From Halobacteriovoraceae bacterium (lineage in GTDB: Bacteria > Bdellovibrionota > Bacteriovoracia > Bacteriovoracales > Bacteriovoracaceae): a stretch of DNA of 64,000 bases. This document shows, piece after piece, positions 59,763 through 63,039 of the stretch (positions within the stretch are counted from its first letter, which is position 1; each line of letters starts with the position of its first letter). Both the position numbers and the translations under genes were made by a program. The stretch covers positions 1 to 64,000 of the forward strand of contig PAMZ01000003.1 in assembly GCA_002707495.1 (NCBI GenBank), given 5' to 3'. The notes below the pieces were generated by a model. The model was not told where the DNA came from. It saw nothing but the letters and a program-made list of their open reading frames with translations, and searched no databases.

Positions 59763-60872
59763 TTATTTCTCATAAGCCTCTTTCCACTCATTAGGACTAT
59801 GGTGAAAAGACAGGCTTCGATCACAAGTATCAGAGATGATAAAGGGAAAATCAATCTCTAAGCGACCAATTATTCGCTTTCTTGAAACAGAGAATCTGGT
59901 TGAGTCTATAACCTCAACATCAAAGTATCCCTGCTCGTACGATAAAAGCTCGTAGCGAAAATCCGAAAAATCTTTACTCAAATCTGGAAACTTCGGAACC
60001 AACCTCACTTCTCTAGGTACTTTAGCATTAGCCACGCGATTTCCATCTGTATCATAATTAGCACTCACATAAACAGGTCTAGAGAAGTTTGGATCATCGA
60101 ACATATCTAGTGCCTTACTGAGAAGCTTGCCCATAAATGCCAGGAAACCGTTCTCAGAACCAATAATATTCTCAACGGGGGAATTTGTAGTGAAATAGAG
60201 CTTACCCTCGCTTGCAAATTTTTGCAGCATTTTTGGTCTTTTTGATCTCGAAAAGCCTTTATGATCTAGGGTTAGAATATTTGAAGTAATAGCTTTTGCA
60301 CTACTGTCCTCAGCGTGAAAAAGTTTTACCGCCATCCCATAAATTCGCCCTTTAGGTTTTCCTTTTTCATCTAATCTTTGCGAGTCATTTGTTCCCGTTG
60401 ATAGTCGAACGACGGCTGGAACACTCGTGTCTTTTGAAAAGAGCCCCGTAAAATTTGAGCTACTCGTTTCAGGGATTATCCATCTCCCCCTCGCACAGAC
60501 TCCTTTAGGATGTAGCCACTTCATCTTCTTAGGCAGCGAGAAATTTTCGGAATTCGTTAGCAACCTTCTTGAACGAACAGCGAAAGGCCATGATTCCGAC
60601 ATATCCGTATCTTTTTTAAAATAGTGATTGACCACAAGTTCCAAAAGATCGCTTGTCTGCACACCAGCATGCTCAGGCAGAGGAGTTAAAAAAACAGGAT
60701 TTCTCGTTCTTTCCTGATCACTTATGATTTGATTCCATGTTTCGTCTGCAGAATCTAGGGAAGTTGTATTCAAAGCACTTCTTTGAACCCTATCAAGAGC
60801 ATAGGTATTCACACCAAAAAACATAGTTAAAATGATAAAGGTATTTAATACTTTCGGCTTATCTGCTCTCAT
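59763..60872 (-). CDS. Catalase-like haem protein, exported
   Basis: 369 aa from the ATG at 60872 (AAGGAAT ahead; the frame is open to 60932). Signal peptide LNTFIILTMFFGVNTYA. The core follows the catalase-like superfamily: HPKGVCARGRW aligns with the catalytic-His HAKG segment, VPAVVRLSTGTND with the haem-pocket VVRFS loop, and GRIYGMAVKLFHAED with the RGFALKFYTEEG segment. It is shorter than true catalases, and the proximal Tyr motif is not evident, so it may be a peroxidase or peroxygenase-like relative. It follows the cupin/haem-oxygenase-like gene by 70 bp. Confidence 0.75.
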   Translation of the reverse strand: MRADKPKVLNTFIILTMFFGVNTYALDRVQRSALNTTSLDSADETWNQIISDQERTRNPVFLTPLPEHAGVQTSDLLELVVNHYFKKDTDMSESWPFAVRSRRLLTNSENFSLPKKMKWLHPKGVCARGRWIIPETSSSNFTGLFSKDTSVPAVVRLSTGTNDSQRLDEKGKPKGRIYGMAVKLFHAEDSSAKAITSNILTLDHKGFSRSKRPKMLQKFASEGKLYFTTNSPVENIIGSENGFLAFMGKLLSKALDMFDDPNFSRPVYVSANYDTDGNRVANAKVPREVRLVPKFPDLSKDFSDFRYELLSYEQGYFDVEVIDSTRFSVSRKRIIGRLEIDFPFIISDTCDRSLSFHHSPNEWKEAYEK

Positions 60873-60942
60873 TTTATTCCTTGTCTTCAGTGTCCAACCA
60901 ATATGGAACTTAACCAAAGAAATGGAAAACATTTTGTATTTT

Positions 60943-62421
60943 TTACACTATCTGACGCCTCTCAAGTACGATTTCAGCGGTCCTTGCCAGATATAGGTCT
61001 AACATACTCCAACTCTCTTTGAGTAGAATCTCAAGGCTCTCAAGTTTCATATCTGATTCTTTTTCTAAGAGCTCAACACCGAGGGAGTCATGTCCTTCAT
61101 CCATATCACAGTGTTTTTCTATATGATCGCTTTTAAAAGCATCCTTTAATATTTTAGAAAAATGTCCGTAAAAAAGAGAAGCTCCTTTTTCCAGGACCAT
61201 TTGGATCATAACAATTCTTTCAGGATCATCAATTAAAAAGTTTTTTCCAAAAAACCAGAACGTACTGGCCTCTAATACAGGATCCCAAAGCTTAGTCTCA
61301 GTTTGACGCTCATCTCTAAGATCAGAGTCATGTCCTAGTTCGTCTAAGAAGTGCTCAAGAAATACCTTTCTATAAGAATCATTTTTACTAAGTGCCATTC
61401 TAGAAAACATAAGTCTTTGAAACGAATCACTCATAACCTGCAGACAGGATTTCAAAAGCTGAACTCTTTCCTTTTCAGTCATAAGCTCCGCGATGTCCTG
61501 GGAAAAAATTTTATTTTTTTTAAAAGCTTCAATGCATACAAAATTTGTTTGATGTAGTCTTTGAATCGCTGAGGATTCTTTGACAAACTCGACTTTAGGT
61601 TTAGTTAAATCTTCATAAAGACTTGTCTGTTCGAATTGAATAGATAAAGCCCAGAAACCTTTATTTCCACCTCCAATAAAGCCATGGGTTTGCCCAGCAG
61701 GGATATAAGTTATATCGCCTGATTTCAAATTCTTCTGTTTATCTCCCGTCGCGTATCCCTCACCTTCTGTAAGAATAATCATACTATCTGTTTTATGTTT
61801 GTGATTTGAGAGGCTCTCACCTGGTTTTAAGTGAACCCATGCAGCTGAAAAATAGTCTGGAAGTTTTGATTTTAAAATATCAATAGACCCAAAATTTTTA
61901 AGAATCCCTAAATTTTCTAAAACTCCGTCCACCTCAACCTCGTGAATTGACTCTATAGAATCTCGAGATATTTTAATCAATTGTCTTTTCTCTAAAGGAA
62001 TTTGCTCCCTATCGATATATGAAGTTTCGGGCTTTGCCTCGCTTGAAAAAATAGCATCACTTTGAAATTGAATAGATAAAGCTCTAAAGCCATTCGCTCC
62101 CATCCCCTTAAACCCATGCAAATTCCACGCTGGAATATAGATAATATCACCCGCACTTACATCTAGTTTCGTGTCTCCGGTTGAAACTCCCCTACCACTT
62201 GTCACGATCAAGAGACTTGGACAAGGGTGATAATGCTTTGGAAGCTCTCGTCCCTCTGGCATTTGTGTCCAAGCAATGGAAAGCTCCCGGGGAAGCATAC
62301 GACTAAAAAAGTCATGGCTTTTAAAATGTCTAACCTCTCCCAAAAAAGTTTCCTTACCATCCACATTCATAGATCTCAGACAATCTAGCTGGTTTCTCGT
62401 TATAATTTGAGTTTGATTCAT
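60943..62421 (-). CDS. Double cupin fused to a haem-oxygenase-like diiron domain
   Basis: 492 aa, no signal peptide, strong GGGGGT ribosome site. Cupin 1 (about 45-125) keeps three metal histidines (His63, His65, His102), and cupin 2 (about 190-265) keeps His207, His209 and His246; in both the usual Glu is replaced by a hydrophobic residue. The C-terminal 200 residues are all-helical with EHFLDELGH (Glu356, His357, His364) and HCDMDEGH (His437, Asp441, His444), the pattern of haem-oxygenase-like iron oxidases (HDO, PF14518-like). Probably a multi-step oxidase acting on a small organic molecule; partner of the catalase-like protein downstream. Confidence 0.72.
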   Translation of the reverse strand: MNQTQIITRNQLDCLRSMNVDGKETFLGEVRHFKSHDFFSRMLPRELSIAWTQMPEGRELPKHYHPCPSLLIVTSGRGVSTGDTKLDVSAGDIIYIPAWNLHGFKGMGANGFRALSIQFQSDAIFSSEAKPETSYIDREQIPLEKRQLIKISRDSIESIHEVEVDGVLENLGILKNFGSIDILKSKLPDYFSAAWVHLKPGESLSNHKHKTDSMIILTEGEGYATGDKQKNLKSGDITYIPAGQTHGFIGGGNKGFWALSIQFEQTSLYEDLTKPKVEFVKESSAIQRLHQTNFVCIEAFKKNKIFSQDIAELMTEKERVQLLKSCLQVMSDSFQRLMFSRMALSKNDSYRKVFLEHFLDELGHDSDLRDERQTETKLWDPVLEASTFWFFGKNFLIDDPERIVMIQMVLEKGASLFYGHFSKILKDAFKSDHIEKHCDMDEGHDSLGVELLEKESDMKLESLEILLKESWSMLDLYLARTAEIVLERRQIV

Positions 62422-62520: not shown

Positions 62521-62551
62521 AAAATAAAAAGGGCACATCTAGTGTGCCCTT
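62521..62551 (-). terminator. Terminator of the 62575 gene
   Basis: GGGCACA-TCTAG-TGTGCCC (62531-62549) plus outer A-T pairs; on the minus strand it runs into TTTTTATTTT (62521-62530). It separates this gene from the cupin gene downstream. Confidence 0.85.
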
Positions 62552-62574: not shown

Positions 62575-63039
62575 TTAGTCGATATCTGAGATCAAACAAT
62601 TCTCATACTTTGGAAGCATGACAACTGAGTATCTTTCTAAATACTCTGTATAAACCTTATCCTCTCCATCCAACTCAATGGGATCACAGGCAAAGGATAT
62701 ATCTCTGGAATTACTTCTTCTGGTAGACTCTTCTACACCATTGATATAGCTAAATGATACCTTGTGAACCGGTATATCCTCATACCCATCAAAATAGCTA
62801 TTAGTGAAGCGAAGACTTCTTTGGGTGGCCAAAACGAAGCTTTCTCCGTTGCTCTGTGATTCTTTAAAATAATCCCAGTAATGTTGAATATTTCTAGCTT
62901 CCACCGGGTGAAAAAGAGAATTAAAGACTGTTCGGTTGTCCTCTGCGACGGACTTATTCAATTTTGCGATAACTTCGTAAGGGGAAGTTGCGAAAGCTTG
63001 AGAAGTTAAAATAAGCCCGATAAGAATGATCGTTTTCAT
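62575..63039 (-). CDS. Small exported protein of unknown function
   Basis: 154 aa, signal peptide IILIGLILTSQAFA, then an NTF2-like-looking helical start (YEVIAKLNKSVAEDNRTVF) and beta-rich remainder with two Cys (FACDPI, ENCLIS). AAAGGAAA ribosome site. It is monocistronic with its own terminator; a palindrome-rich gap separates it from the divergent exporter gene. Confidence 0.65.
   Translation of the reverse strand: MKTIILIGLILTSQAFATSPYEVIAKLNKSVAEDNRTVFNSLFHPVEARNIQHYWDYFKESQSNGESFVLATQRSLRFTNSYFDGYEDIPVHKVSFSYINGVEESTRRSNSRDISFACDPIELDGEDKVYTEYLERYSVVMLPKYENCLISDID

Follow-up and report, generated by a model that had tools for sequence, protein, structure and literature searches.

A cupin-cupin-HDO fusion protein of Bdellovibrionota, probably an enzyme of specialised-metabolite oxidation

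The window (the whole stretch of 64,000 nucleotides that was analysed), from a marine member of the Bdellovibrio group, carries a gene for a protein of 492 aa, in which two cupin barrels are followed by a helical domain of the haem-oxygenase-like dimetal oxidase (HDO) type. The open reading frame is complete in the ORF list and begins with ATG. The features of the locus are as follows:

59763..60932, minus strand: downstream gene, 389 aa, 10 bp from the fusion gene (ORF list)
60943..62421, minus strand: cupin-cupin-HDO fusion protein, 492 aa (ORF and homologues)
60946..61599, minus strand: HDO domain, residues 275-492 (AlphaFold2, Foldseek PDB, hhalign, conservation)
61090..61113, minus strand: core helix 3 motif H437-x3-D441-x2-H444, the HDO signature (conservation, alignment with PF14518 proteins, hhalign)
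61189..61191, minus strand: core helix 2 ligand E411 (conservation, alignment with PF14518 proteins, hhalign)
61330..61341, minus strand: core helix 1 ligands E361-x2-H364 (invariant, Embleya included; matching (E)ExGH in the alignment to PF14518 proteins)
61633..61947, minus strand: cupin 2, residues 159-263, metal His H207, H209 and H246, Ser213 at the Glu position, corresponding to the only cupin of Embleya (Pfam, AlphaFold2, conservation)
61795..61803, minus strand: cupin 2 HxH, H207 and H209 (conservation)
62065..62382, minus strand: cupin 1, residues 14-119, metal His H63, H65 and H102, Ser69 at the Glu position, invariant Cys67 (Pfam, AlphaFold2 strands, conservation)
62227..62235, minus strand: cupin 1 HxH, H63 and H65 (conservation)
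62529..62551, minus strand: terminator-like hairpin at the end of the upstream gene 62575..63039 (pattern match; 2 found, 2.9 expected by chance)

As the upstream gene is closed by the terminator-like hairpin, the fusion gene is probably transcribed from a promoter of its own; the downstream gene is likely to be co-transcribed with it. The 389-aa product of the latter had no match in Pfam or NCBIfam. The name catalase, given to it by eye only, was rejected, with no match to PF00199. Shorter distant relatives of this protein (310-360 aa) were found in 17 of the 123 other genomes searched, and the three relatives that were examined have a C-terminal CDHRLHFxHP motif in common.

The N-terminal half of the fusion protein was matched by Cupin_2 of Pfam in two stretches (E 4.7e-22), with 38% identity between the two barrels. 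Both have the pattern HxHxxxS...H (H63, H65, S69 and H102 in cupin 1; H207, H209, S213 and H246 in cupin 2), which was found to be invariant in both barrels across the alignment of 11 double-cupin homologues, including one with an in-frame stop; the Embleya homologue described below has it in its only cupin as well. Canonical cupins have Glu at the position where both barrels here have Ser, and a Cupin_2 fold in which HxH...H is present and the Glu ligand absent is that of a three-His metal cupin. The solved structures closest by sequence to the cupin half were small Cupin_2 proteins, DddK and gentisate dioxygenase; gentisate 1,2-dioxygenase (a three-His bicupin) and DddK (a small Cupin_2 protein) are alike in being its nearest solved sequence relatives, but they lack an HDO domain and match one barrel only, with weak E-values. 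When the full model was compared by Foldseek, the barrels fell among bicupins such as oxalate decarboxylase and the quercetin dioxygenase YxaG, and seed storage bicupins were matched as well. A Cys directly after HxHP in cupin 1 (Cys67, window about 62221..62223) was invariant in the 11 double-cupin homologues and is missing from cupin 2 and from the Embleya protein; it is possibly a second-sphere or cross-link residue.

The C-terminal helical domain is an HDO, as established by its match in fold, by hhalign to PF14518 proteins and by six invariant ligands, and it goes unrecognised by the current HMM libraries (Pfam and NCBIfam). Searches against both at E 10 gave nothing relevant for the domain and left the last 210 residues unmatched, hmmscan gave no direct match of the window protein or domain to PF14518, and a PDB sequence search with C-terminal-domain profiles gave nothing relevant and no SznF chain. 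The whole chain, modelled by AlphaFold2 from six sequences (pLDDT 84.6, pTM 0.60), consists of two beta barrels and then an all-helical domain, in an arrangement that the pTM leaves uncertain. Residues 275-492 modelled alone from eleven sequences (pLDDT 85.2, pTM 0.84) were predicted to adopt the seven-helix haem-oxygenase-like fold, and the best Foldseek PDB matches of this model included UndA (4wx0/4wwj, E 8e-5, TMq 0.71; also 6p5q), CtCADD (8va9, TM 0.73/0.74) and AetD (8ji6, TMq 0.73). TenA homologues and PqqC were likewise among the matches. The 50 matches listed include no ferritin, and a ferritin-like fold was rejected on this ground.

Homology to PF14518, an accepted HDO-fold family, was detected by hhalign. 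A profile that included the Embleya sequence gave weak matches to stand-alone proteins, six of which (in G138, G132, G135, G351, G155 and G153) are proteins independently found by PF14518, and the motifs of the two groups were aligned as EExGH/EELGH, LE/LE and HxxxDxxH/HxxxDxxH. Against these PF14518-type proteins the profile scored 96.9% (E 1.4e-10), a result that became clear once the Embleya sequence was added and the weak-hit PF14518 set was used, and one that is favoured by the choice of this set from matches of the same profile. This selection bias is lessened by a larger PF14518 set with members picked otherwise, which gave 97.4%, and by the independent PF14518 assignments. The controls (eight column-shuffled and one reversed) scored 0.06-0.44%, and the profile without Embleya, against the best-scoring PF14518 proteins, reached 2.7%, which is not significant. 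The stand-alone PF14518 (Haem_oxygenas_2) proteins of Bdellovibrionota thus share detectable homology with the domain, with all six ligands aligned, but differ in being about 220-240 aa long and in having no cupin.

The six predicted ligands (E361, H364, E411, H437, D441 and H444) were invariant in the alignment of all 12 known members, including that of Embleya, which is only 27% identical over the HDO domain. They compose, to judge from the sequences, the three-His, three-carboxylate (3H/3C) motif (D/E)xxH, E, HxxxDxxH on three core helices. In published HDOs the 3H/3C set is made up of (D/E)xxH from core helix 1, a Glu from core helix 2 and, from core helix 3, HxxxDxxH (HxxxExxH in AetD), with HX3(D/E)X2H as the HDO signature (PMC11611611). 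In the AlphaFold2 model the ligand-bearing helix is broken between E361 and H364, and confidence drops just after D441 in core helix 3; both features were counted in favour of HDO identity, since HDO structures have been described in which helix 1 is kinked or interrupted and helix 3 is flexible (PMC11611611). By conservation alone, no acidic residue is invariant in the helix that precedes core helix 1 (residues 317-344), D332 being D or N, and the additional carboxylate of an SznF-type site (3H/4C) appears to have no conserved counterpart. The initial annotation, which had described two cupins with three metal His each and without the usual Glu, followed by an HDO-type helical domain with Glu/His/Asp ligand helices, agrees with these results in both respects, on Pfam and alignment for the cupins and on fold, hhalign and invariant ligands for the helical domain. 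The folds that it had named as fatal to this assignment, ferritin-like or TenA-type without ligands, did not appear in the predicted structure, and its three potential metal sites on one chain can be specified as two predicted three-His cupin sites and one predicted 3H/3C HDO site.

The systematic survey of homologues covered Bdellovibrionota, and beyond this phylum one contig scan was made with exact peptide patterns from the window protein. Full-length homologues with 48-72% identity occur in other genomes of the same family, and the cupin-cupin-HDO order, whose recurrence had been proposed as a check on the initial annotation, was found in 11 of 369 Bdellovibrionota genomes, distributed over three families. 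In one of these homologues (G053, L013:6971-8428), TGA stands in frame where cupin 2 has a conserved Trp codon (the W257 position); this copy is either broken or affected by an assembly error. Viral contigs yielded no relative. The actinomycete Embleya sp. NBC_00888 has a homologue of 349 aa with a single cupin and an HDO domain (31% identity, E 5e-43), located on a 5.7-Mb linear plasmid (NZ_CP108785.1). The Embleya cupin resembles cupin 2 (38.9%) more than cupin 1 (32.9%), and its link to the HDO domain is direct, as that of cupin 2 is. On this evidence the core module would appear to be cupin 2-HDO, to which a duplicate, cupin 1, was added.

The closest precedent, which the initial annotation did not name, is SznF, unlike other characterised HDOs in having a cupin (2026 review, PMC13108848); its HDO carries out two hydroxylations of the substrate, and the product is rearranged by its three-His cupin. 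SznF/StzF and the homologues GrbD and ChmM likewise combine an HDO and a three-His mononuclear cupin in one chain, and each domain performs one step of natural-product modification (PMC13108848, PMC11705231, PMC10849742). The order of SznF, however, is N-terminal dimerisation domain, HDO and a single C-terminal cupin, whereas one or two N-terminal cupins precede the HDO here, and its HDO has a 3H/4C site, to which auxiliary helix 2 contributes an additional Glu (E189), compared with the 3H/3C site here, in which no fourth carboxylate is conserved. Comparison of the C-terminal-domain profiles with the PDB revealed no sequence similarity to SznF. The 3H/3C enzymes UndA, AetD and CADD have the same fold (TM about 0.7) and the same ligand set, (D/E)xxH, E, HxxxDxxH, but stand alone without a cupin and are about 12-14% identical to the domain here. 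No paper on an N-terminal cupin with a diiron domain was found in the open-licence PMC literature, which is weak evidence. As the SznF cupin is treated in the review literature as the exception among characterised HDOs and no such paper was found, the architecture is regarded as a variant of the known cupin-HDO fusion. A cupin on an HDO is already known from SznF; what is new is the reversed order, the duplicated cupin and the 3H/3C site, and the cupin-cupin-HDO arrangement has not been seen among characterised HDOs.

The protein is probably an enzyme of specialised-metabolite oxidation. The reading preferred here, with a probability of about 0.55, is by analogy that of an SznF-like tailoring enzyme of specialised metabolism, bifunctional and dependent on non-haem iron. 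From the domain identity, ligand conservation, distribution and contexts, which were observed, we infer metal occupancy, catalysis at each site, the order of steps and the kind of substrate. Three His and three carboxylates of the HDO domain would coordinate a dinuclear iron (or Fe/Mn) centre, which would activate O2 as a peroxo-dimetal species and oxidise a small-molecule intermediate, and by analogy with SznF a cupin would carry out the second step. This would fall to cupin 2 with a three-His mononuclear metal, acting on the product or a precursor in a rearrangement, a lyase reaction or a dioxygenation. Three-His cupin sites occur in non-oxidative enzymes too. Cupin 1 would be a lineage-specific duplicate that keeps its three His and may add a further metal site. 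Characterised HDOs number only about a dozen, and another cupin-HDO family, arranged independently of SznF and represented in two phyla by proteins with one cupin or two, makes it possible to test the pairing of HDO and cupin as a general two-step strategy.

Among the other readings, a single-site enzyme, with catalysis by the HDO alone and with the cupins as structural, oligomerising, substrate-binding or metal-delivery modules, is possible if doubtful. Bicupins are often structural or binding modules, the seed storage bicupins among the Foldseek matches of the full model are in line with this, and the family tolerates one or two cupins; against it, the three metal His are kept in both cupins of 11 homologues, which is unexpected for scaffold domains, and cupin 1 is more conserved than cupin 2 (63% versus 55% mean identity across homologues). 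It is unlikely, at the other extreme, that two mononuclear three-His cupin irons and one diiron HDO site oxidise one metabolite in successive steps, by types of reaction beyond those of SznF, although such a protein would be a new class of single-chain multi-site oxygenase. The three conserved metal sites of the chain also gave rise to the channelled oxidative pathway of the initial annotation, with one step per metal site and direct transfer between sites, which is improbable and was not borne out: the packing of the domains is uncertain, and since the Embleya relative has one cupin, cupin 1 is dispensable to the family and three sites are not needed.

A sensor or regulatory protein, in which ligand or metal binding by the HDO or a cupin serves to control gene expression or another enzyme rather than catalysis, would be in keeping with the divergent LysR-type gene that adjoins the homologue in three genomes and with the overlap between Cupin_2 and the AraC_binding model. 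The chain, however, has no DNA-binding or signalling domain, its complete catalytic ligand set is invariant and the LysR gene would itself suffice as regulator, so that this reading is quite improbable. Still more remote is a C-terminal domain of TenA or PqqC type, a haem-oxygenase fold without a metal site; TenA and PqqC are among the Foldseek matches, but the scores of UndA, CADD and AetD are at least as good, and none of the six HDO ligands varies.

The preferred reading of an SznF-like tailoring enzyme was also compared with the genomic neighbourhoods, which differ in nearly every genome and reveal no common pathway; at most Bdellovibrionota loci, the window included, they are not an obvious biosynthetic cluster. 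In G125 a 2OG-Fe(II) oxygenase gene and a CHMI-family gene lie closely downstream of the homologue, in G237 the homologue overlaps a P450 gene that is followed by MFS and UDP-glycosyltransferase genes, and the divergent LysR-type regulators are those of G042, G045 and G078. The Embleya locus (L061:1-16032) contains genes for a beta-ketoacyl synthase (KAS), a FabG-type reductase, an acyltransferase and a thioester reductase, together with a PaaZ-like ALDH-MaoC protein, an ADH, a flavoenzyme and an AMP-ligase, in an unannotated cluster that is type-II-PKS/FAS-like. These recurring oxygenase and biosynthetic neighbours fit a tailoring role, and they name no substrate. The Embleya KAS resembles AmcF of cispentacin biosynthesis (E 3.7e-65, below the cut-off); as the cispentacin pathway paper mentions neither a cupin nor an oxygenase, this link is only a lead, and the cluster itself offers a route to the product of a cupin-HDO enzyme.

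In G125 (L017:6151-9079), genes resembling a NIS synthetase (siderophore-type) and a lysine N6-hydroxylase were named by eye; they lie upstream of the fusion gene at a distance of a few kb, on the same strand and with other genes in between. Double-cupin proteins without an HDO were also found in relatives (L003, L012). In two such related proteins (L003:4917-5729 and L020:6273-7004) the second barrel is degenerate, and the gene of the former lies near AMP-ligase, MBOAT and SGNH-like genes, again named by eye.
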